Part shown: positions 6,067 through 27,467 of the stretch, one piece after another
Layout of the letters: each line of letters begins with the position of its first letter
How positions within the stretch are numbered: position 1 is the stretch's first letter
Source: a virus
Reading direction: 5' to 3' (one strand)
IMG/VR virus record: IMGVR_UViG_3300017969_000053
Location: 1-34,780 of that record
DNA length: 34,780 nt
Notes under the pieces: model-generated
What the model saw: only the letters and a program-made list of their open reading frames with translations
Databases searched by the model: none
What the model was told of the DNA's origin: nothing
Made by a program: the position numbers and the translations under genes

Positions 6067-6649
6067 TAGCAATAGAGCTAGATTAACAGCACTAAGTGGT
6101 TTGTATTTTGCAGGCCCCGCCGCTGTTCTGCAACGAACAAGTGGTGTTGTTTTTCCTAATCAACCTGATATTGTTTACAACCAGAGTGTAAACTACACTC
6201 CTTATAATTTAACACACACAAACTACACAACTTATGCATATGCGAATACTCCTAGTCCTACACTTCAATTAACAGCGCAATTTAGTAATGTTACTGCTGA
6301 AGAGCACTCATATACACAAGGTGTTATACACTTTTTGCGTAGTGTAACTAAAATGTTTTATGGATTAGGCGATGTAAGTTCTACACCAACTGCTGGCACT
6401 CCGCCACCAGTGTTGAGATTTAGTAGTTTTGGTACAAATCAGTTCAGTATGGTTCCAGTTGTGGTTGGAAACGTGAGTATTCCTTATCAAAGTGATACTG
6501 ACTTAGTTGAACACAATGGTATAGCATTGCCAGCCCTCCAAACCATTGCTTTAGATTTACTAGTAACAGTTAATCCTGCAAAACAAAAAAGACAGTTTAG
6601 TAAAACACAGTTTGTTAGTGGTAGCTTATATGGCGGAGGATTTATTTAA
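6053..6649 (+). CDS. 48: gp48-like baseplate tail tube cap protein (198 aa)
   Basis: Probable baseplate protein at the junction with the tail tube. The visible signature is the segment EEHSYTQGVIHFLRSVTKMF followed by a Pro-rich stretch with PPPVLRFSSFG and then FSMVPVVVGNVSIPY, as seen in gp48/gp54-type proteins of marine T4-like phages. It is shorter than T4 gp48 (364 aa) and gp54 (320 aa), so it may be a minimal version. It starts inside the end of the nucleotidylyltransferase gene (AAGGAT upstream) and its TAA overlaps the gp53 ATG (TAATG). The neighbourhood gp48-gp53-gp5 supports the call. gp54 is the alternative. Confidence 0.7.
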   Translation: MAVADSNRARLTALSGLYFAGPAAVLQRTSGVVFPNQPDIVYNQSVNYTPYNLTHTNYTTYAYANTPSPTLQLTAQFSNVTAEEHSYTQGVIHFLRSVTKMFYGLGDVSSTPTAGTPPPVLRFSSFGTNQFSMVPVVVGNVSIPYQSDTDLVEHNGIALPALQTIALDLLVTVNPAKQKRQFSKTQFVSGSLYGGGFI

Positions 6650-6948
6650 TGGCAACCTATCGTGATGCAAGTAATTATTCAGTAACAAAACTTAATAGAA
6701 AGTATTTAGATGTATACAGTCCAAAACTGACACTGGAAACACTTTCACAAGAAACTAAAAAAATACGTATAGGAAACAGGTATAACAGACGTCCTGACTT
6801 GTTAGCACATGACTTGTATGGCAACAGTAGGTACTGGTGGATATTTGTTCACTATAACAGAGAGGATCTTGTTGACCCTATAAATGATTTTGTTGCGGGG
6901 AAGGTTATTGTTGTTCCTAGCAAGCAAGCCGCAACTGGAGTTAGTTAA
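6649..6948 (+). CDS. 53: gp53-like baseplate wedge protein (99 aa)
   Basis: Baseplate wedge component. RPDLLAHDLYGNSRYWWIF (residues 48-66) is the family hallmark, followed by REDLVDPINDFVAGKVIVVP, which resembles the LysM-like C-terminal end of gp53. It is shorter than T4 gp53 (196 aa), like marine versions. The start codon overlaps the previous stop (TAATG) and its own stop overlaps the next ATG in the same way, so these baseplate genes are translationally coupled. Confidence 0.9.
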   Translation: MATYRDASNYSVTKLNRKYLDVYSPKLTLETLSQETKKIRIGNRYNRRPDLLAHDLYGNSRYWWIFVHYNREDLVDPINDFVAGKVIVVPSKQAATGVS

Positions 6949-9900
6949 TGTCAACACCAACTCCTCCTAGTACAACACCATCACTGGAAACCCAACTAGA
7001 TTTTCTTGTTCACGAAATGGGAACAGGAAATGGTGGTAGTTTAATAACTAACAACAGTTGGAACAGTGGAAATCTTTCTGCAGAAGGTGCAGCAACTTTA
7101 TTTGAAAATAGATTTGAACGATCAGGCGGTAGCAATCTCAATGGTAGGATCAATTATGCAAACCAAGTGTACAATGCTGCACAAAATGGAACGCTAGGAT
7201 CCATCAGTTCTAACGTTAGGTCATCATACAATTATTTGATAAGTCGAGGATTTAATCCTGCTCAAGCCTCTGGTATTGTAGGAAACCTTATGGCAGAAAG
7301 TGGTACTGGTTTAGATCCCGCTGCATTTAATCCAGCAGGCGGCGGTCAAGGGGCTTTTGGTATCGCACAGTGGCGTGCTGACCGTCAGAGTAATTTGTTA
7401 AATTGGGATGGCGAAGCAATAATTCCCAGTGAAGATTTTGTACCAGATGACACAACACCATTAGTTAACAGTCCGGAGGATGCAAGTGAATTAACTGGCA
7501 ATGAGGGGAATTTTAATACTGGTGGTGGACAAAGTTTATACGAAGACAATGTGTTAAACAGTTTTGATAGTTATACGTATAGTTGGGCTATACATATGGT
7601 AAATCCACAAACTGCACAGGATTTTGAAGAAAACTTAAACAGAAATACATACATTACACTTGCTGAAAGTGGTGTTGAAAATGAAATTAGTATCGAGCAT
7701 GTCATACAATCAAACACCCTTAATTTTGTTCATCAAAATAGAAGCAGTGTTGCAAACACATTTGATATCACATTAGTAGAAGCAAAAGGATTTACATTAT
7801 TCAATAGAATAATTTTAGCAGCACAAGATTTGGGTATTGAGAATCATATTGAGGCAGCATATTTGTTAGAATTGAATTTCCGTGGATGGGACGAAAGTGG
7901 TACTCCAGTAAATGAAATTGTAGGACCATACTATTATATGACAACCATTACTGATTTTAAAACTAGACACAGTGACAGTGCTACTACTTACCAAGTTTCT
8001 TTTGCAGAAACACATCAAGAAGCATTTAACCGTCTTGAGTATCATTTAAGATCTGACATTACTGTAACAGCATCTAATTTTGGTGCTTTTTTAACAGACT
8101 TTGAACAAAAAGTCAATAATGAAGCTGTTAAACAAACTGCATTAACACTGAGCAAGTTGTACCCTACACTGTACGTTTTTGGTACAGAGGGAGAAGCTAG
8201 TACTTGGGAAAGTTGGGATTTTGATGCTATTATTGGAAGTGAAATACAAGAATCTAGAAATATTAGTATGACTGCCAGTGGCGGTACAATAACATTTAAT
8301 TTTAAAGCTGGTACTTCTATTACTGCTGGTATAGCAGCCGCAGTACTACAAACTAGAAACTTTAAACAAATACCAGTAGCAAATGGTCAGTTTGCAAAAG
8401 ATAATCCAGATGCTGGAACGGCCAATGCGACTCGACTTGCAGAAATGATAAATTGGTTTTCATTTACTACTGAAGTAGAATACAAAGAATTTGATCCACT
8501 GTCAAGACAATATCAAAAACAAATAACATATAATATACAACCATATATTGCGTTTGAAGGATTACATGATCCGATTAGTTTCTCAGAACTAAACACTAGC
8601 AGAACATTACAAACTACTAGACTTGATAATATTTTAAGAAATGGGTTCTTAAAAAAGCGTTTTGATTATACATACACTGGATTAAACACTGAAGTTTTAA
8701 ACTTGGATTTAACTTTTAATAATACGTTCTTTTCATTACAACCAATTAACGGTGGTGCAATTGAAGGAGCAGGCGGATATTTTGACGGGTTAACTACTAC
8801 AGAAGCTAACGCAGTTAGAGCAAGAAATGAATTTCGAGCAGTGCAAGATCAAATCAGAAGTCTAAATCGTCGACTTGGTGAAATTGATAATGAAAGAGAA
8901 GCTGCGCTGTCTAGACGTGACATGGGTGACTTAGATATTATCACACGTCTAGAGTCAGAAAGAAATATTATTTTAAGTAGGCGCCAAAGCCTTACAACAC
9001 AACTAATTAATAATTCTGAAACAGCATTTGATACAACACAGGAATTAGCAGAACAATCACGCAATGCACAAGGAAATAGTTTAACTCCAACTGCACAACA
9101 GTACATTACCCAAAGTGATGTTTTTGCAGGATCACAATATCAAGATAGCATAGCAAGATCAATGAATTTTGACTACAGAAGTGTTAGAGATAGTTTAGCA
9201 GCAAGTGGTGCTGATTTATCTGATAATGTTGGTACTGCAATGTTGGGCGCACTTGAACTAAATTTAAATGCTGTGGAAAGTATGGTAAACCAACGTATTG
9301 ACATACGTGGTGATCCATACTGGCTAGGAAGGCCCAAAGGAGTTAGTGTATCAAATACAAATCAAGCTAACTATAGCCGAGGTGGGATTGGATACTTTTT
9401 ACATGTTCGTTTCCCAACATATGAAGGTGAAGATGGGTTTATAGATCAAAGTTTTACAAACTTTACTATTACTGCCTTATTCCGTGTATTAACAGTAACA
9501 TCAACATACAGCATGGGTGAATTTAAACAAACACTAACTAGCTTTAGAGATGTGTCAACCAATGTTCCTATGATGATAGAACAATTACTAAGTGGTAAAA
9601 TATCCAATCCTGGTAGAAGGAATTTACAACAACAATACACTGACAATGATGGTGATGGTATTGATGATACAACTGGTGAAGAAATACCAGAAGATAACTC
9701 AACAGAAATTGATCCAAATGCAAGAGGCAATGATAGTGGATCAGTTAGTGGCGACATTAATGGTTTAAGACCTGAACTTATGAATGCACTTGATCAAGCT
9801 GCAACAGAAACAGGAGTAACTGCAGTTGTGACCAGTGGGGTTAGAGGTGGCGGTAGCAACCCAAGTGGTAGACACAATGGCAGTGCAGCAGATGTTGCAC

Positions 9901-10211
9901 TATATTCAGATGGTAGACTTCTAAGTGTGGAAAATCCAGCAGACCTTGCAATTATTCAGAACTATACACAAGCATATTTAGATGCAACAAGAAGTGCAGG
10001 ACTTACACCTAGTGTTGGTATTGCTAACCCTGCATATGGCAGCGGATCATCTTTATATATGAGTGGAACATCATTCCACTACGACATCGCAAGAACACCA
10101 GGGTATTCATCTGCAGCAACAAATCCAGCAGCTGGTCCTTATTGGGGAGGTTCACAAGAAACAGCACACCATTCACCGCCGTCTTGGCTAGTAGATATGT
10201 ATAACAATTAA
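6948..10211 (+). CDS. Baseplate hub-type protein with tail lysozyme and M15 peptidase-like domains (1087 aa)
   Basis: Large structural protein that probably forms the central baseplate hub and carries the wall-penetrating enzymes. Residues 13-78 (from LETQLDFLVHEM to RINYANQVYNAA) and 91-153 (from RSSYNYLISRGF through GIVGNLMAESG to AFGIAQWRADRQ) match the second and first halves of the phage tail lysozyme family, so the domain looks circularly permuted. E117 is the likely catalytic acid. Residues about 210-890 are structural and hub-like. DNDGDGIDD (899-907) is a calcium-loop motif. Residues about 940-1060 resemble an M15 D,D-/L,D-peptidase: SGRHNGSAAD with H976 and D982, then FHYD with H1044 and D1046. 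The H-to-D spacing is one residue shorter than usual, so activity is uncertain. The gene lies between gp53 and the gp5-like spike. Confidence 0.75.
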   Translation: MSTPTPPSTTPSLETQLDFLVHEMGTGNGGSLITNNSWNSGNLSAEGAATLFENRFERSGGSNLNGRINYANQVYNAAQNGTLGSISSNVRSSYNYLISRGFNPAQASGIVGNLMAESGTGLDPAAFNPAGGGQGAFGIAQWRADRQSNLLNWDGEAIIPSEDFVPDDTTPLVNSPEDASELTGNEGNFNTGGGQSLYEDNVLNSFDSYTYSWAIHMVNPQTAQDFEENLNRNTYITLAESGVENEISIEHVIQSNTLNFVHQNRSSVANTFDITLVEAKGFTLFNRIILAAQDLGIENHIEAAYLLELNFRGWDESGTPVNEIVGPYYYMTTITDFKTRHSDSATTYQVSFAETHQEAFNRLEYHLRSDITVTASNFGAFLTDFEQKVNNEAVKQTALTLSKLYPTLYVFGTEGEASTWESWDFDAIIGSEIQESRNISMTASGGTITFNFKAGTSITAGIAAAVLQTRNFKQIPVANGQFAKDNPDAGTANATRLAEMINWFSFTTEVEYKEFDPLSRQYQKQITYNIQPYIAFEGLHDPISFSELNTSRTLQTTRLDNILRNGFLKKRFDYTYTGLNTEVLNLDLTFNNTFFSLQPINGGAIEGAGGYFDGLTTTEANAVRARNEFRAVQDQIRSLNRRLGEIDNEREAALSRRDMGDLDIITRLESERNIILSRRQSLTTQLINNSETAFDTTQELAEQSRNAQGNSLTPTAQQYITQSDVFAGSQYQDSIARSMNFDYRSVRDSLAASGADLSDNVGTAMLGALELNLNAVESMVNQRIDIRGDPYWLGRPKGVSVSNTNQANYSRGGIGYFLHVRFPTYEGEDGFIDQSFTNFTITALFRVLTVTSTYSMGEFKQTLTSFRDVSTNVPMMIEQLLSGKISNPGRRNLQQQYTDNDGDGIDDTTGEEIPEDNSTEIDPNARGNDSGSVSGDINGLRPELMNALDQAATETGVTAVVTSGVRGGGSNPSGRHNGSAADVALYSDGRLLSVENPADLAIIQNYTQAYLDATRSAGLTPSVGIANPAYGSGSSLYMSGTSFHYDIARTPGYSSAATNPAAGPYWGGSQETAHHSPPSWLVDMYNN

Positions 10212-10220
10212 GGAAACGAA

Positions 10221-11684
10221 ATGTCTAAAGAATCAAATAGATTTACAGGTATGAACCAAGGATCAACCGGTATACCAGCAATATACGCAAGTGGTAACCG
10301 TGCTGGATTCACTATGGCTAATGGTGTATTTTTGGCTAAAGTTGTTGATATTGCTGATCCTGACTTTGGCGGGGCTCTTTGGGTTGAGCTAATAGGACAC
10401 CAGACTTTTGGTGAACGTGATACTAGAGAGCAAAGACACCAATTCCAAAAAGTAAGATCAGTTTCGCCATTTGGTGGCAGTATAAGCGGCAGAGATACCA
10501 CAGTGTCATATGGTGCAAATTTCCCTCCGCCTGCGCCAGGAACTGAAGTATTAGTAGCATTTACTGGAGATGATAATGTTGGATATTTGCTAGGATCTTT
10601 ACCTGCAACTGGAAGAAACGGTGCAGTACCAGGACTTCCAGCATCACAAATTGAAGGCGAAGACACTGTTGGATCAAGCGTTGATCCAGGTGCTTCACAA
10701 GATGGAAACGTGAGAAGACGACATCCAGTAGCAAACGCTATTGCAGAACAAGGTATCGGATTAGATCCAGTTCGTGGATTAGGAAGTAGTGGAGCAAGGC
10801 GTGAATCACCATCTAACGTAGCAGGGTTTTTAACACCTGGCGGACACAGTATAGTAATGGATGATGGAACAGTAGCTTATCAAGAAGGCGAAAACTATGT
10901 TCCTGACCAATCAAGAGAAGCTGGAAACAACAATTTATTAAGGTTACGTAGTGCTGGTGGCGCACAAATGCTATTCAATGATACTGCTGGTATTGTTTAT
11001 GTTATAAATCAAAATGGTAGTAGTTGGATACAACTAGATAGTTCAGGAAATATTGACATATATGCAGCAGGTAGTATAAGTTATCATGCAGAACAAGACT
11101 TTAACTTTTATGCTGGCGGAGATATTAATATGGATGCTGACACGTTTAATATTAAAGCACGTGGTGCAGCAGGTATACAAGCAGAAACTGCAACTGGACC
11201 AATACAACTCAAAGCAAACAAAGATATAAGACTGACTACAGATTTAAATTTGCAACTAAAAGCCAGTGGCTATGGAAGAATTAGCACTGATGGCATATTA
11301 GACTTGAACGGCCCAACCGCACTAGGCGCAGTAGGTCCAACAAGTGGAAGTTTAGCAGTAAACAGAACAGTTAAAGAAAGTATTAATCCAAGAGTACCCG
11401 AACATGAACCTTGGGGTGGTCATCTATCACAAGGAAGTACATCTGTTGCAGCACAAGCACCTGCAAGCGGGCAAACTACAGCTAAAGATTATGATGTTTC
11501 TCAGTTAGACAGTTCACTAAGTTCTGGTGTATCAGGAAGAACACTACCACAATTTGGAAAGGCTGGAAGAAGATCAACAGGAGTAGCAGGCGTATCAGGC
11601 GTATCAGGTGTTGCATCAGGAGTAGCAGGCGTATCAGGTGTTGCATCAGGAGTAGCAGGCGTATCAGGAGTAGCAGGTGAATGA
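10221..11684 (+). CDS. 5: gp5-like baseplate hub spike, OB-fold plus beta-helix, no lysozyme domain (487 aa)
   Basis: Central spike protein at the tip of the tail tube. Residues about 30-125 resemble the gp5/VgrG OB-fold (FLAKVVDIADPDFGGALWVE, then PAPGTEVLVAFTGDDNVGYL). Residues about 205-380 contain short repeating segments (FYAGGDINMDADTFNIKARG, then IQLKANKDIRLTTDLNLQLK) typical of the trimeric beta-helix. Unlike T4 gp5 there is no lysozyme domain between them. Wall hydrolase domains are on the preceding protein instead. The C-terminus (454-487) is a low-complexity GVAG/GVSG repeat. AAGGAAACG precedes the ATG, and the stop overlaps the next gene by four bases. The assignment rests on domain order and context. 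Confidence 0.85.
   Translation: MSKESNRFTGMNQGSTGIPAIYASGNRAGFTMANGVFLAKVVDIADPDFGGALWVELIGHQTFGERDTREQRHQFQKVRSVSPFGGSISGRDTTVSYGANFPPPAPGTEVLVAFTGDDNVGYLLGSLPATGRNGAVPGLPASQIEGEDTVGSSVDPGASQDGNVRRRHPVANAIAEQGIGLDPVRGLGSSGARRESPSNVAGFLTPGGHSIVMDDGTVAYQEGENYVPDQSREAGNNNLLRLRSAGGAQMLFNDTAGIVYVINQNGSSWIQLDSSGNIDIYAAGSISYHAEQDFNFYAGGDINMDADTFNIKARGAAGIQAETATGPIQLKANKDIRLTTDLNLQLKASGYGRISTDGILDLNGPTALGAVGPTSGSLAVNRTVKESINPRVPEHEPWGGHLSQGSTSVAAQAPASGQTTAKDYDVSQLDSSLSSGVSGRTLPQFGKAGRRSTGVAGVSGVSGVASGVAGVSGVASGVAGVSGVAGE
11580..11681 (+). repeat. In-frame tandem repeats encoding GVAG/GVSG/GVAS at the spike C-terminus
   Basis: A roughly 100-base tract built of 9- and 12-base subunits (GTAGCAGGC, GTATCAGGC, GTTGCATCA). 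A 30-base higher-order unit coding for GVASGVAGVS occurs twice in nearly identical form. Copy number changes in multiples of three would keep the frame. Near-identity of the units suggests recent slippage or recombination. Confidence 0.9.
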
Positions 11685-15900: not shown

Positions 15901-16518
15901 ATTGCAGATGCAAATCAAGTCATTGATCCTGCAACAACAAATATTATTGACACATACGTACTATTAACATCATATGAAAATAACTTTAGAACATGGGCAC
16001 AGTATGATGGAAGAAGTTTTACAAGACCAGCATCACCTACAATATCAGAACTAAATGATTTGTTCAAGAGTTTAGAGACGAAAAAATCAATAAGTGACCA
16101 AATCATTTATAGACCAGTAAAATATAAAATACTATTTGGTAATTTGGCAAATAGTGAATTACAAGCAAGGTTTACAGTAACAAAAACTACTAACAGTTCA
16201 TTTAGTGACACTGAAATAAAACAAGAAGTTATTCGACTAATTGAACAATATTTTAGTATTGATAACTGGGACTTTGGTGAAACATTTTACTTTACTGAAT
16301 TAGCAGCTTACATACACAACAACATGGTTGGGCAAGTGGCGCAAATAACTATTGCGCCAGTAGACACCCAAGCAAGTACTGATGCGCTTTTTGAAATTAT
16401 AAGTGACAGTGATGAATTGTTTTTACCAGTACTTTCAACAAATGATATTACAGTTAATAAAAGCGTAGCATATAATCCAACAACAATTGCAGCCAATACC
16501 GGAGTTAATATTAGATGA
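12979..16518 (+). CDS. 6: gp6-like baseplate wedge protein, enlarged (1179 aa)
   Basis: Wedge protein that forms the ring around the hub (the gpJ-type family). The N-terminal signature ELMAFLGHNLAFRNDLNSRE (residues 66-85) is followed by STAERRDSALRIAEFLGYTP. The C-terminal part (about 1050-1165) contains IKQEVIRLIEQYFSIDNWDF and FTELAAYIHNN, the conserved end of gp6. At 1179 aa it is nearly double T4 gp6 (660 aa). The extra mass is internal, including a Gly-rich pair of beta repeats at about 618-690 (NGGSGYATAPTVTI and a related SDSGVNYDSNTSITF). Start and stop are coupled to gp25 (TAATG) and to the next gene (ATGA). Insert function is unknown; it may decorate the baseplate surface. Confidence 0.88.
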   Translation: MAQGARQSSLFAAEDFSVVYESFAQANFKAYDFDTIKNAMVEYIDTNYPENFNDWISSSEFTSLLELMAFLGHNLAFRNDLNSRENYLSTAERRDSALRIAEFLGYTPTRNVVGNGYLKIDSIKTSETIYDVDGNSLSNVDLQFEDVTDPTAYQNFLTVMNSIFMASNQFGAPHSRFTRNSVTNEVYRTKSTNAPVNYEFNGTISGARATFGIHSVYHNEKLNRLQEKTPDPYGALDILYRNDNGGFSSPNTGFFLGFKQGSLSFKDFDITEGLPNLVIDINDNNIANGNVWVQTIDEVGSVITNWAQVDRIFGLNSIYNNVSNNFRNIYTVSSRENDQVSIVFGDGNFGNIPRGIIRVWYRTGLNLSYVINPESFGRVTYSFSYLGLDGNTYNASFTASLKTSVSNASERESLQSIKDNAGRFFSTQDRLVTAEDYSIFPLTVSENIRKIKSINRVHSGHSRFRDFNDPTGSYSDAINFIDDGYLYREDIAARNIISLPTTLNSEQKFSRYIKPLLDNPEVKNFYYDRQFYGPTGSANLTTQYSDTTSNIVYYNTDGSALNTFRWNQVTKGSNTSTGYITDDTAIVQRVGTSGVSPMDKIKVNSIIEFITPNYKIGYIKSIQILNGGSGYATAPTVTIAGSGTGATGIANIDGSGTVISITISDSGVNYDSNTSITFSGGGGSGAAASPVIGNADTQWVRVTGIYNDGLGIDDSIGVPTGVDLLNRGSISLNGIIPSGARIKRIIPSWSSDLTSSVKNDMFNRLANNNSFGLRYDASSQQWIIVDGSNLVTSSLTNNNPSSWSRQYEGDTTGTGLDNSWIIRVNYTSTAWEIITRKTRYIFGSDEQVKFSNLNFQETFSSETLKPSMDNIEILSINTKSATNNIALGNNYKMNAFGYFTYPDGYTDPYKIRLTLASPDNNGYPTTPSAFHDIVGSDTINLGTKTVDGFTYTVRDSGGSQTVTGRSSLKSKYTRIADANQVIDPATTNIIDTYVLLTSYENNFRTWAQYDGRSFTRPASPTISELNDLFKSLETKKSISDQIIYRPVKYKILFGNLANSELQARFTVTKTTNSSFSDTEIKQEVIRLIEQYFSIDNWDFGETFYFTELAAYIHNNMVGQVAQITIAPVDTQASTDALFEIISDSDELFLPVLSTNDITVNKSVAYNPTTIAANTGVNIR

Positions 16519-19500
16519 GCACACAATATCATGCAAAGCCAGTACTAGCAAAAAAATCAGTTAGACCAGGTGAAAGTTCAGAGCATGTGGGTATTAGAAA
16601 CACCACTGAGTTGCTTCCTGCAATCTTTCAAACTAGTATTAACAAAAGGTTTTTAAACAGTACACTAGAACAATTATTGTCTTCTGGTAGTATGGAGGCT
16701 GTAAATTATTTTGCAGGCAATACGCAAAATAGAACAGTTAATGAAACATTTTTACACGATCAAAGATCAAGTGATAATTATCAATTTGTTCCAGGAAGTG
16801 TTGTTCGTAATAAAGATAACGACATCACACAAGCAATGTCATACGATGATTTTTTAGATATTCTAAAATTTAATGAAGTTGATGTCAAAAACACAAACCG
16901 TATTTTTAATGAGCCTGGATATACACTTGATTTGCCAATTAATTATGATATGTTTATTAACTATCATCATTATTTTTGGCTAGTAGACTATCTACCAGTT
17001 TGTGATATTAACGCAACAGTGTCAGATCCCATTAACATTAGTGATATTGTAGGTGCAGTATATTATACTACTCCTAGTTTGTCAAATGGTAAAGCACTAT
17101 CATTGCAAGACGGAATGCGTATTAGATTTACTGGATCAAACTTCACTGGTTCAGCTGGCTATTCAGTTAATGATATTTTCATTGTTGATGGCGTGGGCAC
17201 TAGTATTGCTCTTACAAAACAATTTGAAGATGCTGGAAATGGAAATTATGGCAAACGAGTGTGGTTCAATGATACGATATATGGCACACAAGAGCCTAGC
17301 CAATGGAATGGTTCAGAAGTAGATTTTATATATCCTGAATATGATTTAACTGATTATCAAGCATACAGTCGTGAATATACTGTAGAGCAAAGACATACAG
17401 TTGACCAAAGTTCATGGAGCAGACGCAATTTATGGATACATGAAGAAGCAGTACTCACAATTGCAGATTTTGTCGACGTTGACGCACATGATTTCTTACT
17501 TGAAAGATTCCGTGGAATACGTCCTATTATTGAATTTCGTGCAAATATTGAAAAATATAATTTTGCTACACAAAGTTTAGGAAGTGTAACACACATTTAT
17601 GACAATGTAGATGATCCAGCCACTGAAATTATTGGTACTGCATTTGATCTTGCAAGCTATGTGGTAACAGAAACTTGGACAAATACTGGATATGAGTATG
17701 GAGACCATGTTAAACTAGATTCTAATGGTGTTATATCATATTGGAACTGTATCAAAACTCACACCGAAGCACGTAACCCAAGCCATTCGGAAAATAACAT
17801 TTACTGGAAATCAATTCAATCACGTGATTTAATAAGTGGTGATAGAATACTATTCTTAAACTCTACAAACGCAACATACAACAACAAAATTTTTGATGTT
17901 ACTGTGAGTGGTGGTGTTGTTACAACACTGACTGAAGTTTACGGGGCATCGTCAACTGCATTAAATGTTGGCGACGGTGTTAATGTACGTATTGGTTATA
18001 ACAATGTTTTTGGTGAAAGTTATCCAAACGACATTTATAGTGGCAGTGAATGGCACTGGGATGGTAGTAAATGGGTATACAGCCAGCAAAAAGATTCACG
18101 AAATGATAGTATACTATTTCAACTGTACGACACTAGTAGTATTAAGTTAGACAACCAAACGTTATACCCTAACAGCAACTTTGCTGGAGACTTTATTTTT
18201 AAATACGGAACTTCGAACAGCACAGAAATTGATTCAGCTCTTGGTATTCAACCACGTTATGTTGATTACGGAAATGAACCAGGTTTGAGCTTTGATATTG
18301 GTCTAGGTAGTGTACGTTATACATTTAATGACAGAAACACTACAGATGATCCTGAAAATACTAATGCAAGTGTACTAAGTGAAGTACTAGGATATTACTA
18401 TTACAAAAAACTAGACAACAATCAATATTATAATGGATGGGTTGAAATCAGAGGCGGGCAACCAGTTAAAAAACATGCACAGAAAGTTGTGGTTGATGCA
18501 AATCAGCCAATTGTAGTTAACTTGGGTACCAGTAATATTAATTCAGATAATATACTAAAGTTTACTAAAAGAAATGGTAAGCTAGAAGTTTACCAAGGCG
18601 GAAATTTACACAACACTCGTATAAATGGATTAAATCCATCGTTGTTTGTTGAAAAAAACAAAACGTATACAATTACGACATATTTTGATAGCACTGATAT
18701 CGAATTCGTAGACACGGATGGATCAGCATTAAGCAATATTACTATTGGTACTGCAACAAACAATACATTTACCTTACAAGTTGATAGTGCATTTGATAAA
18801 AAAGTATTTAGATACCGTTTGGTTAGCGATAACACTGTTACTGGTTTAATTTATGACAATACTGAAACTAGTTCAAACTTAAAAGTAACAAAAAATGGAT
18901 CGGATTTTACTACTTACTCAGTAGCAAATCAAAAATTAACTATTTCCAGCAGCTATGCAAAAGATGATGTATTTGATGTGACTTGGATTAGTGATGACAA
19001 TATCACTGACAGTGATGGTGTTGACTTGCCAGCAGATACGCATATATTAAATCCACAAAACGAGTTTTTAACACAAGTAAGTTTTGGTGATATTTTATCA
19101 CACATGAAAGACCAGATTGTCAATATACCAGGTCTTACTGGAAACTTTTTTGGTGTTAACAACTATAGAAACTTACCAAGAGTACATGAATTTGGCGGAA
19201 CAATTAGACAACAGCCGTATAGCACTGAGCTATTGTCTCAATTAGTTATGCATAATGACACGAACATTTTTAGTAGTTTAAAACATGCGTCAAACAGTTA
19301 TGCAAGTTTTAAAAAGCAGTTTTTACAAAAGTGTATTCAGTTGCACAACACAATGGATAGCTCAAAAGCAGTTTACGAGATTGTTGATGAAGCATTAAAA
19401 AATATCACTATTGGTAAAAATAAAAATGATGTTTTTGCTAATAGTAACATGCTCAAGTTTAATGATTATGAAGAAACAACTGGTTACTGGACAGCCACTA

Positions 19501-22500
19501 TCTCACCAGTGTTTGACTTGCCACAAACAGTAAACACATATAACGATACAAAAAACCATGTACAGGTATTTGTTAGAGATGATGATGGGGCAGGCAATGT
19601 TCGCTGGAGAAGTTTAGTTAAAGATGTTGATTACACACTTAGTGAAACACAAGTTACAATAACAAGTAGTGTTACATTTGACAGTGACGGCCAAGCGTTA
19701 ATAAAAATTCGTTGGTACCCACTTACAAGTAAGAGTTTTGTTCCACCAAGTGCAGTTAAACTTGGTCTAGTTAACGATTTTACACCAGTAACAGATGCAA
19801 CAAACATTTACGGACATGATGGTAGTATTGTTAAACGTAAAGGTACAGAACTATATAATAGAAACCAAGCAGGCTTTAATATTGAAGACGCTGTGTTATG
19901 GGACTTTGAGTCACGCATTTATAACAACCTAATTTCTACAAATGTAGTTGATTATAAACACATTATGCCAAATGCAAATCGTGTCACAGTTTATAACTGG
20001 AGCGACTTGACAAATGCATTACGTTCAGATTTCAACAAATGGAAAGTTAGAAACAACGTTTCTGCAATTCATGATGCCAGTGCATACAGTGCTGGAGATC
20101 CGTTTACTTGGAATTACAGTAGTGTGGGTCCTGGAATTGGCGGATGGAGAGGATTGTATACTTACTACTTTAATACGGATCGTCCGCATACTCATCCGTG
20201 GGAGATGTTTGGGTATAATGAAAAACCAAGTTGGTGGGACGCTAACTATAGCTGGACTGATCCAGGAAAACGTACTGCACTTATTACAGCCCTAAAAGCT
20301 GGTCATTATAACGATCCTGCAAATACAGCAAAATACAGTTTAACATATGCATACACTGCATATGATTGGGATACTGATACTCTAGTAACAAGTGGCGGTG
20401 TTTTAAATAATCCAATTGACGCAAACTTAGTAGCGTCTCCAGCAGATCCAGCAATTGCATTTGTTTTTGGTGATTGGGGAGATATTGAAAACACATGGAG
20501 ATCAAGTTCAGAATACAAAATATCATTGTTTACTGCATTAACTAAACTAAGACCGTTACGAGTAGTTAACGACTATTTTAGAAGTAACAACAGAACAGAG
20601 TTTAACTTTAATACTGTTCAAGTAGCGTTTAGTGACACCAAACAACTAGGCAATAACAAAGATATTACCCTAACTAACGAAAACTTTGAAGATAACATTA
20701 TTGAGTACGTTTCAGTTAGAACCGGTGGAAGTGGATATACAAGTTCTCCAGAATTGTCTGTATACAGTAACTTTGGTACTGGCGCTGAACTATTGGCAAA
20801 AATAAGCGGTGGAAAGGTTGTTGCAGTGTCAGTAACCAATCCAGGCAAAGGATATCAAACAAAACCAAGTATTATTGCAGCGACAGGTTCAGCAACATTT
20901 GATGTAGTATTATTAAGTGGTGCACAAAAGTATGTTGATGGCTTGAGTAATGCTGTTGTTAACTATGCACATAGAAGTGGCACAGATGTAAGTGTTATAG
21001 TTGAGCGTTTAGAAAATTACAGCAACAACCCGATTATTAAAACTGGTGGATTTGTCAATAACAATCAAAGTTTAATTTTAGAAAGTAGTCAAGACAAAGG
21101 GCGTGTTGTAATTCCAGAAGAAAACATTAACACCATAGTTTATACAAGTCAACCCAAAGAAGAACTTTTCTTTGGCGCAGTAAAAGTAACAAAAACTGCT
21201 ACTGGTTATAAAGTGAATGGTTATGACAATACATTACAATACTTTACATATTATAAACCAAATGAAACTGCAGGCAAGATAATTGTTAATATCGGCAACA
21301 AGCGAGTATACAAATATAAACAAAACCAGCTTTCTACATCTACCCTAGACTATAATACAACGTTAGCTGGCGACCAAGAGCTATATGAATTCTTAATTGG
21401 TTATGGTGAATACTTAAACTCAGTGGGCTGGACTGCAACCTGGAGTTCAACAGCAGGAAATACTATCTTGTGGACAGAAACTGCGAGCAATGATGATGTA
21501 TACTATGCAATTCCAAGTACTGAAAAGATAGAAATACGTGAAACAAAGCCTGGATATTTCAGCAATATTGCTAACAAGTTTGATGGCGAATTTAACGTTA
21601 TCAATCAAAATGGATATCAAATATTAAACAATAAATTGCTGATAACTCGCAACGTAATTAATGACATAGACGGTGTTACAACTGTTGAGTCAAGAGACGG
21701 GGCAAGCATTTATGGATTAAGACTTTATAGAGTTGAAGTAGAACACGCATTTATTGTTGATAATACAACAAATTTTGATGATTTAATTTATGATCCAGTA
21801 TTGGGCACAAAACATAATCGTATTATTTGGAGAGGTAACAGAACAAAAGATTGGAATGGTAAGTTCTACGCACCAGGATTTATTATTAATGGAGAAACGC
21901 TACTTCCAAACTTTGACACGGTTGCAAGTGAAATAAGCAAGTACTACGGACCAGGAAATACATTAAGTAATCAACAACAAGTAGACACTGCACGTTTTAA
22001 TATTGGTTATAACAAACCAAGTTGGAACGAAGTTATTGGCTTAGACGATGACACACTGTTTAACTTCATTAAAGGTACTCGTAAATATAAAGGCACACGC
22101 CATGCTTTAAACGCATTTATGAGAAATACAGCATTGTTTGGAACCCTTGCAACTGCTAAGGTACATGAAGAATGGGCAATACGCACAGCAGACTATGGTG
22201 ACACTCGTAGTAGAGATACACTTGAATTTGCAATCAATAAAGAACTACTAAAGACAAATCCACAGCCTGTACGATTTAGTGCAGATGAGCTAAATGATGT
22301 TCTAAGTGATATTGTTATCGATGTTGACTTTAATAGTGATTTGCTAGTTACAGGTTCTCCTGGAAACAACTTTACAACTAGATGGCCTAAAACATTTAAT
22401 TATACTACAATATCACAAGAATCATTATATGCTAATGATTTAATAACAGCAGGACTTCCGCTGTTGACAGAAGCTGACTATCGTGTTTTAAATAGAGATG

Positions 22501-25500
22501 ATTTTGAATTATTCCCACAAGAAGTCAAAACTGAGTATAGTTTTGATGGAGAGTGGAGAAATATTCAACACTGGGATAACAAGACAGCATACAAGTACAA
22601 GGATCGTGTGATTTACAAAGGGCGTGTTTGGGAAATGCTTGACCCAGACGGAACAAGTGGATTGACTAGACCAAATGATCCTGTTACTACTACAGGAACT
22701 GTTACGCTTCCAGTTATTCCAAGTTCTAGTACTGGTGAAACTTTAGTTATTGACGGAAATACAATTACACTACAACGTACAACTACAACTAGTACATATG
22801 GATCTATTGTAGTTGAAGGAACAAACGACATTCTTTCAAGTAATGTAGTATTAGACGGAACTACTATTGTGCTTGGAACAACCTCAAATAATGCAAGAAC
22901 AATTACATTTGACACAACAACATCAACAATAGTTTACAATAATGCACAAATTGTTGGAAGTGTAATCAGTCCACAAATTCTAGGCAGTGCCACAAAAGAA
23001 TTAATTATTGAAAACACAAGTGTTTTGTTTGATGAAACAGAAACATTGTCACAAAACATTACTGCACAAACAGCATTTGAACAGATGTTCTTTGATGCAT
23101 TTGAGTCAGGAGTAAACACGTCTGTTATACGCTCAAGTGTTGCAACACAAAGAATTCAAAGACTAGAAGCGTTTAGAACAGCATACAGTGCTGCAACAAG
23201 TAACGCATCATACTCTAGTTTCTTAACTCAATACTTTGCTAATAGTCCAGTTGGATTAGAGATTAGTTTACTACTTTCTCTTAATGCAGGATCTCCATCA
23301 TATCAGACTGAGTTAGAAAACTTGATTTCTAATGATATTGACTTAATTAACAATTCATTAGGAACAACATATGATGCTCCAAGTGTTATTGCTGGCACGG
23401 AAACTGTTACACCTGCAAATATTGCAAGTGCACAAGCAGATCTAGATGATAGCAGTTTCCCAACTGACATCAAGAACTATTTAATTGCAAACCCAACAAC
23501 GCCGTTTACTACAACTACAGTAGTATCCACAACAACAGGAACAGTATTTAAAACATACAACCTGACAGAAATTATTGATAAAATTAATGGCACTGGTATT
23601 GCTAATGTGACAGCAAGCAACAGCAATAATCGTCTGCTAATTACAAAAACAACTAATACTCCAAGTATTGAATTTACATTAACAGTAAGTGTCGCAAGTG
23701 CAAACACTGAAGTTGGTATTGCTTCAAGTGGTCCTACAATTGTAACAAGTACTGGTAGTGTTGTAACTACAAGTCCAAATCTTACATTACAGCAAGTAAT
23801 TGATCAAATTAATGCAGCTAGTATTACTGGAATTGTAGCTGGAACTGGCGGAACAAACAGTAACTTGTTAAAAATTACCAGCACAAACCAAACACTATAT
23901 ATTGGCAATGGTACTGCTAATTCAACAATTGGGTTATCAGTAGGCGCAACATCAGCACCAACGACTATCACAAACATTAATACAAATGTAGACTTGGCTT
24001 CTATGATTGACATTATCAATAGTGCTGCAATTGCTGGTGTTTCAGCAAGTAACAGTAACAACCGCTTAAGATTGACAAGTACAAATGCTACACTTGTAAT
24101 TGGTGCTGGTACAGCTAACACCACAGTTGGATTAACTGCACAAACATTAAGTGCTACACAAAACGTGATATCAAATATGTTTAACGCATTTGTTGGTAGC
24201 GATGGAAATCAAGTATTCCAAGAGATGGAACACGACCCTAATATTTTCAGCATTTGGGTTGCAGACAACAAAGATGCAGAAGTTAGCACATCAAGTGGAT
24301 ATAGTGTTTACCAGACTATGGATTTTGGTATGTATATTACTAGAGCATGTGCTGGTGTTAATGATGCAGATGATGCACAAATTACTATAGCAGTAGCAGA
24401 CAGTAATACACAAGCACACAATTTAGTTAAGGGCGATTATGTATTCATTTCAGGTAGTAATACCGTCCCTAGTATTGACGGAATACACAAAGTTACTGAG
24501 GTAGACTCAAACAAAGTAACCTTCTACATTGACGAATACATTGATGAAGAAGGAAATGTTGGTAATGTTTATCCAATGCGTAATGTTAGATTCCCTAGTT
24601 TTGCATCTCTAAACAACAGTTATAATTCACAAGTGAATGGAATGTTTGTTTATAATTTCTCAGGACTTAGACAAAACAATCAACAAACTCCTAAATTTGC
24701 ATTTGTTGATGACGACGGTACTGGTTCACCAGCAGTTTACAAGTTCTTGGGTTCTTATACAAACAATACAGGACACACTGGCGATGGTTGGTTTAAAGTT
24801 CGCACAAGTGCAAGTCAAGCAAGAAATGACTTGATGGAAAGTGTAAAAATTTATGACGCTACAACTAGAAGTCTAATTACGCAGTTGGAAGTATTTGATC
24901 CAGCTAAAGGAATTATTCCTGGATTTATTGATGAAGAGATTGATTTTATACTTACATCTGATCTAGCCAGTTATAATTACAACACACTTGATGGCTTTAC
25001 AGAAAATACAAAGGCATGGACTAGCGACATGGTTGGATTACGCTGGTGGGATATCAATAATGCAATCTATGTTGACTATGAACAAGACAGTATTGATTAT
25101 AAACAAGCGTATTGGGGAAGATTGTTTGACGGTGCCACTATTGACATATATGAATGGACTCGCAGTAGCGTATTGCCAGAGGAGTGGGAAAACCTAGTAG
25201 CTCGTAATGGATATGTTGATGGTAGACAAGCAACTGGTGAACCACTGAGTGTAATAGTTGACGGTGAAACAGTTTATCAATGGGTTGAAGAAAACTATTA
25301 TAATCCAAGAAACAAACGCACAGAAACAAGTTATTACTTCTGGGTTAAAAATAAATTAAGTAGTGTTGGTAAAAGAAATTACAACACTTATCAACTAGCT
25401 AGAATATTGAAAAACCCAACAGCATTTGATGTTTCTTGGTTTGCTGCGGCTGGAAACCAAGAACTTATTCTTGCTAATATTGAACAATATGTTACTGCAA

Positions 25501-27467
25501 ACAGTGTTGTACAAATAAATCAAAAGTACGACAGTAATGCACTTCCAATGAGCGAATGGACACTACTTGCTGAAAACGATCCAGTAAGTGTAATTCCAGA
25601 GCAACTGCATATTAAAATGCGTGATAGCCTAGTGGGTTACAATAGAAATACAGATGTATACTCTTATAGCACTTGGTCAAATAGCACAGTGTATCAGGCA
25701 AATCAAGTTGTAGAAGTTAGTGGTAATTTTTACATAAGTAGAAATGAAAATACCAATGTCAATCCAACAACAGACACACAAATGGCTAAGTGGGAAAGAA
25801 TCTATGACTATACATTACCAGACGGAACACCAGAAAGTGACATTTCAGTAGATCGTCCACATGCATTGCCAGATTTAGATTTGCACCCATACAATCGTTA
25901 CGGACACTTAATTAGACCAAGACAAAGTTTAGTAAGAGAAATTCCAATTGCAAGACACAATTTTGTAGAAACAGCAAACAAATTACTTGCTGAAATGAAC
26001 TTAATAGAAGAAGTCAGTAACTGGGATCGTGTGTTATCTTCGACATTTGTTGAAGGAACAGTTACATACAATATGAAAAATTATTGGAACTATGTTGATT
26101 ACGTGAGAAATTCATATGACATAAGTATACCTACAAAGTATAGAGTCAAAACAAAAGAGCAAATTAGTGGTCAACTTGGACTTCCATTCCCATATGTAAA
26201 CGGCGACACTGTGCTAGTTACAGATGTTATGCATAACGATGGTATAAACAGACCAGAAATTTACACTAGAATTAACGATGAATGGATATTAGAGTATAAA
26301 GAAAAATCTACTATAGAGATTAGTGAAGAAATTTGGAACAATGAAAAATTTGGTCTAGGTTTTGATTTATCTGGCTTTGATACTGACGGATTTGATAATA
26401 GTGTTGATGGTATTTTGACTAGAATAATTGACGAGTTGCGTTACACAATCTTTATTGGATCACACCAAGTAAAATATAACCAGCTTTGGTTTAAACTATT
26501 GTATCAGGCAGTTGCAGACAATGCAGTTGATGATTTTGCATTTAAAACAACATTTGTTAAGCTAAATGTAGAACACCCACTGCAAACTGCTAGAGAAAAG
26601 TATATGGGATACAACATTGATGTTGTTACAGAATTCTTTAATAGTATTAAGCCATTCCATACAAAATTACATAGCATTGTAGACAGTAATACACATACTG
26701 ATTCTGTAAGTACAAATATAACTGAACAAAATCGTCAAACGTTTATTACAATGCGCTACAATGATCACAGTGAGCGTGAATGGGAAGGTGATACAATACT
26801 AACAGGTGGCACATTTACAACCGAACCAGATAACACAGATACAATCACATTTACTACAGTGGATGGAGACATTGAATTTGTGTATAATGGCAATGTTTTC
26901 CAACAAGCGCCAACTGAAGGTTGGGGTACTGAGCTTGTTCCAATGGATGTGTTGGAAAACATTCGTATTCGTGTACAAACCAACACAAGTGGAAGTACAG
27001 TTGATCCTACTAATACTCGCACATTCCAGATGAATATATTTGAACCATATAACATTGAGGAAAATATTGTGATAGCACAAGCAAACGTTGCGGTGGTTCA
27101 AACAACTGTTACTGCTGATGCAACAACAATACCACTAGTTGATGCTAGTATGATGACTGTTCCAACTGATGGCATATTGGGTGTAGCTTGGATTGGAACA
27201 GAGCGTGTAACATATGGTGCTGTTGATGGAAACAACTTAGTATATGTAACCAGAGGCACATACGCTACAACAGCACAAGAACACGTAGGTGGAACAATAG
27301 TTAATGACGGAAGCAAGCAATTAAGAATTCTTCCAGCATTGGCTAATTTTGGACACTACGGTGATAATTTGAGACTTGCATACAATGATAACGGTGTAAG
27401 TCTAGCGACAAGCGGTACTACTCCTGAACATGAGTTCATAAGAAATGCCGGTTTTGGAACGTTATAA
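16515..27467 (+). CDS. 7: Giant gp7-position baseplate wedge protein (3650 aa)
   Basis: Very large structural protein directly after gp6, where T4 has gp7 (1032 aa). The N-terminus (INKRFLNSTLEQLLSSGSME, about residues 42-61) and the C-terminal segment GILGVAWIGTERVTYGA with YVTRGTYATTAQEH (about 3553-3593) are features I associate with the giant wedge proteins of marine T4-like phages. Recognisable inserts are a Gly-Ser-Gly-Tyr beta repeat near 1404-1460 similar to that in gp6, a Thr/Val/Ser-rich stretch near 2059-2140, and three repeats near 2346, 2421 and 2491 that resemble the flagellin/hook IN motif. The frame is open for 10.9 kb with no sign of frameshift. The gp7 name rests on position and should be treated as provisional. 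Confidence 0.75.
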   Translation: MSTQYHAKPVLAKKSVRPGESSEHVGIRNTTELLPAIFQTSINKRFLNSTLEQLLSSGSMEAVNYFAGNTQNRTVNETFLHDQRSSDNYQFVPGSVVRNKDNDITQAMSYDDFLDILKFNEVDVKNTNRIFNEPGYTLDLPINYDMFINYHHYFWLVDYLPVCDINATVSDPINISDIVGAVYYTTPSLSNGKALSLQDGMRIRFTGSNFTGSAGYSVNDIFIVDGVGTSIALTKQFEDAGNGNYGKRVWFNDTIYGTQEPSQWNGSEVDFIYPEYDLTDYQAYSREYTVEQRHTVDQSSWSRRNLWIHEEAVLTIADFVDVDAHDFLLERFRGIRPIIEFRANIEKYNFATQSLGSVTHIYDNVDDPATEIIGTAFDLASYVVTETWTNTGYEYGDHVKLDSNGVISYWNCIKTHTEARNPSHSENNIYWKSIQSRDLISGDRILFLNSTNATYNNKIFDVTVSGGVVTTLTEVYGASSTALNVGDGVNVRIGYNNVFGESYPNDIYSGSEWHWDGSKWVYSQQKDSRNDSILFQLYDTSSIKLDNQTLYPNSNFAGDFIFKYGTSNSTEIDSALGIQPRYVDYGNEPGLSFDIGLGSVRYTFNDRNTTDDPENTNASVLSEVLGYYYYKKLDNNQYYNGWVEIRGGQPVKKHAQKVVVDANQPIVVNLGTSNINSDNILKFTKRNGKLEVYQGGNLHNTRINGLNPSLFVEKNKTYTITTYFDSTDIEFVDTDGSALSNITIGTATNNTFTLQVDSAFDKKVFRYRLVSDNTVTGLIYDNTETSSNLKVTKNGSDFTTYSVANQKLTISSSYAKDDVFDVTWISDDNITDSDGVDLPADTHILNPQNEFLTQVSFGDILSHMKDQIVNIPGLTGNFFGVNNYRNLPRVHEFGGTIRQQPYSTELLSQLVMHNDTNIFSSLKHASNSYASFKKQFLQKCIQLHNTMDSSKAVYEIVDEALKNITIGKNKNDVFANSNMLKFNDYEETTGYWTATISPVFDLPQTVNTYNDTKNHVQVFVRDDDGAGNVRWRSLVKDVDYTLSETQVTITSSVTFDSDGQALIKIRWYPLTSKSFVPPSAVKLGLVNDFTPVTDATNIYGHDGSIVKRKGTELYNRNQAGFNIEDAVLWDFESRIYNNLISTNVVDYKHIMPNANRVTVYNWSDLTNALRSDFNKWKVRNNVSAIHDASAYSAGDPFTWNYSSVGPGIGGWRGLYTYYFNTDRPHTHPWEMFGYNEKPSWWDANYSWTDPGKRTALITALKAGHYNDPANTAKYSLTYAYTAYDWDTDTLVTSGGVLNNPIDANLVASPADPAIAFVFGDWGDIENTWRSSSEYKISLFTALTKLRPLRVVNDYFRSNNRTEFNFNTVQVAFSDTKQLGNNKDITLTNENFEDNIIEYVSVRTGGSGYTSSPELSVYSNFGTGAELLAKISGGKVVAVSVTNPGKGYQTKPSIIAATGSATFDVVLLSGAQKYVDGLSNAVVNYAHRSGTDVSVIVERLENYSNNPIIKTGGFVNNNQSLILESSQDKGRVVIPEENINTIVYTSQPKEELFFGAVKVTKTATGYKVNGYDNTLQYFTYYKPNETAGKIIVNIGNKRVYKYKQNQLSTSTLDYNTTLAGDQELYEFLIGYGEYLNSVGWTATWSSTAGNTILWTETASNDDVYYAIPSTEKIEIRETKPGYFSNIANKFDGEFNVINQNGYQILNNKLLITRNVINDIDGVTTVESRDGASIYGLRLYRVEVEHAFIVDNTTNFDDLIYDPVLGTKHNRIIWRGNRTKDWNGKFYAPGFIINGETLLPNFDTVASEISKYYGPGNTLSNQQQVDTARFNIGYNKPSWNEVIGLDDDTLFNFIKGTRKYKGTRHALNAFMRNTALFGTLATAKVHEEWAIRTADYGDTRSRDTLEFAINKELLKTNPQPVRFSADELNDVLSDIVIDVDFNSDLLVTGSPGNNFTTRWPKTFNYTTISQESLYANDLITAGLPLLTEADYRVLNRDDFELFPQEVKTEYSFDGEWRNIQHWDNKTAYKYKDRVIYKGRVWEMLDPDGTSGLTRPNDPVTTTGTVTLPVIPSSSTGETLVIDGNTITLQRTTTTSTYGSIVVEGTNDILSSNVVLDGTTIVLGTTSNNARTITFDTTTSTIVYNNAQIVGSVISPQILGSATKELIIENTSVLFDETETLSQNITAQTAFEQMFFDAFESGVNTSVIRSSVATQRIQRLEAFRTAYSAATSNASYSSFLTQYFANSPVGLEISLLLSLNAGSPSYQTELENLISNDIDLINNSLGTTYDAPSVIAGTETVTPANIASAQADLDDSSFPTDIKNYLIANPTTPFTTTTVVSTTTGTVFKTYNLTEIIDKINGTGIANVTASNSNNRLLITKTTNTPSIEFTLTVSVASANTEVGIASSGPTIVTSTGSVVTTSPNLTLQQVIDQINAASITGIVAGTGGTNSNLLKITSTNQTLYIGNGTANSTIGLSVGATSAPTTITNINTNVDLASMIDIINSAAIAGVSASNSNNRLRLTSTNATLVIGAGTANTTVGLTAQTLSATQNVISNMFNAFVGSDGNQVFQEMEHDPNIFSIWVADNKDAEVSTSSGYSVYQTMDFGMYITRACAGVNDADDAQITIAVADSNTQAHNLVKGDYVFISGSNTVPSIDGIHKVTEVDSNKVTFYIDEYIDEEGNVGNVYPMRNVRFPSFASLNNSYNSQVNGMFVYNFSGLRQNNQQTPKFAFVDDDGTGSPAVYKFLGSYTNNTGHTGDGWFKVRTSASQARNDLMESVKIYDATTRSLITQLEVFDPAKGIIPGFIDEEIDFILTSDLASYNYNTLDGFTENTKAWTSDMVGLRWWDINNAIYVDYEQDSIDYKQAYWGRLFDGATIDIYEWTRSSVLPEEWENLVARNGYVDGRQATGEPLSVIVDGETVYQWVEENYYNPRNKRTETSYYFWVKNKLSSVGKRNYNTYQLARILKNPTAFDVSWFAAAGNQELILANIEQYVTANSVVQINQKYDSNALPMSEWTLLAENDPVSVIPEQLHIKMRDSLVGYNRNTDVYSYSTWSNSTVYQANQVVEVSGNFYISRNENTNVNPTTDTQMAKWERIYDYTLPDGTPESDISVDRPHALPDLDLHPYNRYGHLIRPRQSLVREIPIARHNFVETANKLLAEMNLIEEVSNWDRVLSSTFVEGTVTYNMKNYWNYVDYVRNSYDISIPTKYRVKTKEQISGQLGLPFPYVNGDTVLVTDVMHNDGINRPEIYTRINDEWILEYKEKSTIEISEEIWNNEKFGLGFDLSGFDTDGFDNSVDGILTRIIDELRYTIFIGSHQVKYNQLWFKLLYQAVADNAVDDFAFKTTFVKLNVEHPLQTAREKYMGYNIDVVTEFFNSIKPFHTKLHSIVDSNTHTDSVSTNITEQNRQTFITMRYNDHSEREWEGDTILTGGTFTTEPDNTDTITFTTVDGDIEFVYNGNVFQQAPTEGWGTELVPMDVLENIRIRVQTNTSGSTVDPTNTRTFQMNIFEPYNIEENIVIAQANVAVVQTTVTADATTIPLVDASMMTVPTDGILGVAWIGTERVTYGAVDGNNLVYVTRGTYATTAQEHVGGTIVNDGSKQLRILPALANFGHYGDNLRLAYNDNGVSLATSGTTPEHEFIRNAGFGTL
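23551..24150 (+). repeat. Three diverged flagellin IN-like repeats within the giant wedge protein
   Basis: Protein-level repeats spaced about 70-75 residues apart: LTEIIDKINGTGIANVTASN, LQQVIDQINAASITGIVAG and LASMIDIINSAAIAGVSASN, each followed by N-R/L-L-x-ITxT and then IGNGTAN/IGAGTAN in the last two. The pattern (helix with INxxxI.GV.A, then a beta strand LxLTST) resembles the flagellin hook IN motif. Codons differ between copies, so the duplication is old. Confidence 0.65.

Follow-up and report, generated by a model that had tools for sequence, protein, structure and literature searches.

Residues 10-154 of the hub-like baseplate protein that a T4-like phage encodes in the window, i.e. 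the whole 34,780-nucleotide stretch of viral DNA analysed here (IMG/VR record IMGVR_UViG_3300017969_000053), very probably constitute a phage tail lysozyme domain (PF18013, phi29 gp13-N type) in circularly permuted form, whose two halves should pack natively, with Glu117 as the predicted acid and a likely role in cutting peptidoglycan under the tail tip, a reading whose probability we put at about 0.88. By the order of its halves the domain is classed as a permuted variant of PF18013, rather than as an ordinary member.

Exchanged order of the lysozyme halves

The PF18013 profile (Phage_lysozyme2, phage tail lysozyme) comprises 140 positions with a curated cut-off of 28.2 bits, and the whole hub-like protein scored 85.9 bits against it, above that cut-off. 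Searched separately, the fragment from residue 13 alone aligned with PF18013 positions 75-138 (E 1.1e-7, 32.5 bits) and that from residue 84 alone with positions 2-65 (E 4.2e-17), and a six-frame search returned the same two sites (6975-7175 with positions 72-138 and 7212-7409 with positions 2-65). Both halves of the profile are present in the protein, but in exchanged rather than native order, and the match in this order is far beyond chance. In one open frame, 6984-7406 encodes LETQLDFLVHEMG...FENRFERSGG...RINYANQVYN first and then YNYLISRGFNPAQASGIVGNLMAESG...GQGAFGIAQWRADR; the profile gap at about positions 66-74 is the place where the native chain connects the halves. The features concerned, hereafter half A for the normally first and half B for the normally second half, are as follows.

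6649-6948, + strand: gp53-like baseplate wedge gene, directly upstream (PF11246, E 1.3e-4; phrog_7145, E 1.5e-22)
6948-10211, + strand: hub-like baseplate protein, 1087 aa (open reading frame; PF18013; phrog_11190)
6984-7175, + strand: half B, residues 13-76, PF18013 positions 75-138, standing first (profile; helices 13-25, 45-56 and 64-79)
7176-7211, + strand: new junction, residues 77-88, linking the former C-terminus with the former N-terminus (gap between the PF18013 matches; junctions tabulated for 28 swapped domains)
7212-7409, + strand: half A, residues 89-154, PF18013 positions 2-65 (profile; helices 88-99 and 104-118, two short strands, helix 144-151)
7296-7298, + strand: codon of Glu117, the predicted catalytic acid (phmmer alignment to 3csr, opposite Glu45 of the phi29 gp13 chain)
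7359-7373, + strand: GIAQW motif, residues 138-142 (invariant in the 16 sequences of alignment A1)
7410-7532, + strand: linker between lysozyme domain and body, residues 155-195 (from the end of the PF18013 match to the body start)
7539-8735, + strand: body, residues 198-596 (phrog_11190)
10221-11684, + strand: gp5-like spike gene, directly downstream (phrog_13211, E 9.4e-18)

The original prediction had held that the usual family order is reversed here and had proposed a profile search in both orders. A native-order profile was built from the 15 native domains of alignment A2, together with a second version carrying the halves exchanged. The exchanged profile covered the window's domain in one piece (residues 12-153, 132.4 bits), whereas the native profile broke into two pieces (94.6 + 28.0 bits), so this fit and the two PF18013 matches, second half first, bear the prediction out. 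Among 118 protein rows 112 were matched, of which 42, including the window, favoured the exchanged and 70 the native profile, with two of the latter (L044 and L134) cut and not informative and three contigs present twice (L022/L094, L023/L111, L024/L120).

The hub-like protein is laid out as the swapped lysozyme domain (residues ~10-154), the linker (155-195), the body and a C-terminal domain of the H...D...HxD pattern, and the start of its gene overlaps the stop of the preceding gp53-like gene. The linker end was set from the body start, which is residue 197 in the identical L152. A PHROGs profile search matched the body to phrog_11190 ('virion structural protein', residues 198-596, E 3.6e-42), and the body is common to the lysozyme-less relatives L048-L053 at 36-37% identity. 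Gene order, between the gp53-like and gp5-like genes, points to the putative 'hub' identity; in a comparison aimed at T4-type gp27, profile A3 retrieved nothing among PDB chains at E <= 0.1. T4-like neighbours include a late sigma factor (phrog_12791), SbcC/SbcD, gp53, gp25 and a wedge subunit (phrog_10646), and the gp5-like gene product yielded no lysozyme match in Pfam, just DUF2345 below the cut-off and weaker matches, so that the cell-wall-cutting domain of the tail is most likely carried by the hub-like protein.

Two further features of these genes were observed. A low-complexity GVSGVASGVAGVSG tail closes the gp5-like protein, and 16515-27467 is one open reading frame of 3650 aa, the first 495 residues of which match phrog_10938 (a virion structural protein profile of 3324 positions). 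At the far end of the hub-like gene, 9795-10208 (residues 950-1087) encodes the C-terminal domain with its conserved RHNGSAAD...FHYD pattern, which presumably resembles that of a zinc M15-type peptidase. The window's copy had no Pfam or PHROGs match, and a PDB sequence search returned ribosomal S3 alone (E 0.016 and above), which was taken as chance. Domains of this type occurred in 12 of the 17 proteins examined, including the lysozyme-less L048 and L053, and were absent from L010, L014, L076, L029 and L110.

Predicted fold and conserved residues

AlphaFold2, run on 16 swapped sequences, predicted that both halves form one compact domain (pLDDT 88.5, pTM 0.87), comprising helices 13-25, 45-56, 64-79, 88-99 and 104-118, two short strands and helix 144-151. 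The single compact fold, rather than two separate domains, expected of the structure prediction that had been proposed for the region was thereby obtained. A native control model (L029 residues 1-145, 15 sequences, AlphaFold2) reached pLDDT 94.2 and pTM 0.89 with helices 5-16 and 21-35, two short strands and helices 60-69, 78-90, 95-102, 107-119 and 126-137; the helix list of the permuted model is this list rotated, save that native helix 95-102 is reduced to a turn.

The native control found phi29 gp13 both with Foldseek (E 2.3e-4) and with VIA-align (Z 15.3 over 136 residues, model 1-139 on 12-157). With the permuted model, Foldseek gave no significant match in PDB and BFVD, an absence that is not counted as evidence; a permuted chain would be expected to escape aligners that work sequentially. 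VIA-align gave the permuted model three rows, in which an unrelated histone chain (7dlx, Z 3.8) ranked above two weak phi29 gp13 rows lying in exchanged places (model 83-159 on 11-86, Z 2.9; model 2-80 on 55-160, Z 2.4); these weakly suggest, half by half, that the modelled domain shares the fold of phi29 gp13. The different outcomes of the permuted model and its native control caution that Foldseek-type searches can overlook permuted domains.

Conservation was compared between 60 native and 28 swapped distinct domains. At the Glu117 column every native domain (60/60) and every swapped one (28/28) has E; its counterpart in phi29 gp13, Glu45, we take to be the catalytic acid. Each of the six native-invariant columns (E, S, G and W in half A; Q and E in half B) is kept in 28/28 of the swapped set, and 22 of the 29 columns that are at least 80% conserved in native domains hold that level in swapped ones (15/18 in half A, 7/11 in half B). 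The losses in half B include an Ala (0/28) and a Leu (2/28) around the native helix 95-102 that shrinks in the model. A second alignment (56 native rows, 35 swapped) showed five of the native-invariant columns kept in 35/35 swapped rows and the Trp in 33/35.

We propose that the chain was opened in the loop between the halves and that the old ends were joined by about 12 residues. According to the model, the halves would pack natively into one active site with Glu117 as its acid. The domain would hang from the N-terminus of the hub-like protein on the linker of about 40 residues and, judging from its position, may during infection cut peptidoglycan beneath the tail tip, doing the work of the lysozyme that is built into gp5 in T4.

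The same order might also arise from a pair of degenerate half-domains sharing no fold, in which the leading one would be what remains of a deleted lysozyme upstream and the following one a truncated copy. Exactly B-A would remain after a deletion running through A(1)-B(1)-A(2)-B(2), the score of half B on its own is low (32.5 bits), and the lost Ala and Leu columns speak for it; yet half B retains Q, E, E, R and R in 27-28 of the 28 swapped domains, AlphaFold2 packs both halves into one confident domain and the arrangement persists in 97 records, the window included, which together render this origin very improbable. Hardly better are the chances of domain swapping in a trimer, whereby half B of one subunit would complete half A of the next. 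T4 hubs are trimers and the 12-residue junction is compatible with pairing in trans, but the monomer by itself is modelled as a compact, confident domain, and the swapped order recurs in a second protein class that is unrelated.

Distribution and origin of the swapped order

The swapped order was found in 96 IMG/VR records besides the window (97 with it), a count that includes near copies and records cut at a contig end, and misassembly is ruled out by this recurrence. The 96 comprise 21 hub-type records and 75 of another virion protein class, with identities to the window from 100% (L001, L002) down to 36% (L022). PF18013 scanning of 45 records gave 22 swapped, 15 native, one fragment and seven without a match, and that of 50 more (out of 55) gave 18 swapped and 32 native, so that the 95 records retrieved by swapped queries included 40 swapped and 47 native ones. 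A scan of second-class relatives (80 loci) added two more swapped records, and 54 were added by a later 80-record scan, in which 76/80 were swapped (22 of them previously counted), three native and one cut; as the scans began from swapped queries and several were limited to the best 80, the swapped share is uninformative on abundance. As a side observation, one swapped-domain gene (L123/L470) is broken within half A, and the match goes on in another, stop-containing frame after a first frame of 112 aa.

The window's domain shares with the PF18013 family both profile halves, the catalytic-type Glu, the GIAQW motif and the conserved Q/E/R of half B, and differs in the exchange of the halves: the Pfam profile, the GTDB genomes found by a swapped query (15/15) and the isolate-phage regions (5/5; Staphylococcus phage MR003, Bacillus phage P59, phage f2b1, Twort and Cellulophaga phi17:2_18) are all of native order. 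In 200 genomes from the phylum of one GTDB match, nine carried a PF18013-type match, none an exchanged pair, with two of the nine partial (5-65 and 5-100) and uninformative on order. The swapped order had been suspected in MR003, P59 and f2b1 from long or two-piece tblastn matches to two second-class queries (15 of 363 and 15 of 294 matches listed), and these regions proved native. Within these five isolate regions, cultured phages yielded no swapped domain, and none of the seven isolate-phage records matching the window's domain (162 aa) covered 80% of it.

Complete frames of the second class measure 412-567 aa, likewise with the swapped domain at the N-terminus, and the class has no similarity to the hub body. 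It is termed podovirus-type because in L018, the one record in which neighbours were profiled, its gene precedes a portal gene (phrog_1216, E 4.6e-134) by two genes. In ten records of the other class (L441, L447, L449, L454-L458, L460 and L469), of which six are 5'-cut, the swapped domain begins at residue 496-839 in frames of 1107-1453 aa; being deep inside such long chains, the swapped order is no start-codon artefact and does not require a free N-terminus. No native-order relative was found in the best 80 of 422 second-class loci (6 swapped, 67 without PF18013, 7 without it but 5'-cut). The 159 hub loci (best 80 of 389 plus best 80 of 547) comprised 19 swapped, 6 native, 121 without the domain, 12 without it but 5'-cut and one ambiguous. 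The original prediction would have fallen if the swapped order were the common one in homologues; this is so among these close relatives (19 versus 6), and not in the wider family, where both orders occur and the Pfam profile is native.

A body tree was computed from 120 of the 159 hub loci, excluding cut, ambiguous, short and duplicate rows. Swapped and native rows lay on opposite sides of a branch with support 100, and the rows without PF18013 were divided into 42 on the swapped and 59 on the native side. The swapped L178 and L191 stood apart from the other 12 swapped rows, among which the domain-less L164, L166, L167 and L169 were placed, so that losses or several gains are required. A single gain in the hub-like proteins was accordingly unsupported by the body tree, though the hub domains are one clade on the domain tree. 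Permutation in situ from the native lysozyme of other hub-like proteins was likewise unsupported, given the split in the body tree and the grouping of native hub domains with other natives (98 in a quick tree).

The domain sequences make it likely that the permuted domain arose once, and an independent permutation in each of the two classes, at the same structurally permissive loop, appears unlikely, though far less so than either degenerate halves or trimer swapping. In a first domain tree (94 rows, seven partial ones dropped) support was strong for the hub clade (100/100) and for the other one (100/97) and weak for their union (46/75), and some residues shared near the new junction could be convergent. 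With better sampling (91 rows thinned from 170) a single branch, short of full support (90/78; 92% of 200 bootstrap trees), set every swapped domain apart from the native ones, and residues rare in native domains are common to both swapped clades, i.e. a half-B Phe (28/35 versus 0/56) and a Val at another column (30/35 versus 3/56), which argues against separate events. The proposed route is duplication or fusion, probably in a single origin with transfer between hub-like proteins and the second virion class. Tandem duplication and loss is plausible; no intermediate (A-B-A-B or B-A-B) appeared among the proteins searched with half-profiles, where the sole double match, L149, was a weak fragment. 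On balance we lean slightly towards one natural permutation having founded an active lineage that moved as a module between contractile-phage hub-like baseplate proteins and podovirus-type virion proteins, so far in uncultured viruses only and missed whole by sequential structure searches.

Known systems and the N-terminal slot

T4 gp5 is the baseplate hub and tail lysozyme, with the lysozyme inside gp5 itself. Both systems have a lysozyme on the central tail device in a contractile phage, and the window differs in placing it on the neighbouring protein, beside a gp5-like gene without a lysozyme match. The N-terminal lysozyme domain of phi29 gp13 (3csr, 3csq) aligns with half A by sequence (phmmer, E 4.9e-4), but is of native order and belongs to a different protein. 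Closer are the native-order hub relatives (L029, L110/L233, L231, L237, L238 and L253), which have their domain in the same slot before a homologous body, followed in L029 also by a gp5-like gene; they differ in lying across the fully supported body-tree branch and in a domain that falls within the native clade.

Engineered circular permutation of T4 lysozyme is known. Natural permutation occurs in other enzymes, e.g. GH70 and MalS in excerpts of PMC9732880 and PMC10223318, where chain segments are likewise exchanged with the fold kept, and the folds are different ones; in the excerpt from PMC7824862 'permuted' refers to DNA methylases. In excerpts from the open-access full-text literature, outside which most subscription journals lie, no report of a natural permuted lysozyme-fold enzyme was found. 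With 97 natural records and native counterparts in the same slot, the effect of chain order on folding and activity of a lysozyme family becomes directly testable.

The slot is also filled by other domains. GH24 (PF00959, E 1e-16) occupies it in the hub-like L183 and an endolysin-type domain (phrog_873, E 3.6e-43) in L186, with L230 alike by eye, and second-class relatives also carry other N-terminal domains by eye; the slot thus looks like a plug-in site for differing cell-wall hydrolases. That the permutation orients the active site in the tail tip, as had been suggested, finds no support in view of the native PF18013, GH24 and endolysin-type domains in the same slot, the linker of about 40 residues and the ten swapped domains far inside their chains, and such aiming is unlikely because native or unrelated lysozyme domains fill the slot and the tether is long. 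The N-terminal slot of L291 and L312 appeared transglycosylase-like by eye, with no Pfam match for L291. In L169, a lysozyme-less relative of the swapped clade, and also in L168, near-perfect tandem repeats ASPLAAGQAGANRHRSVI stand at the N-terminus (residues ~35-95 in L169).
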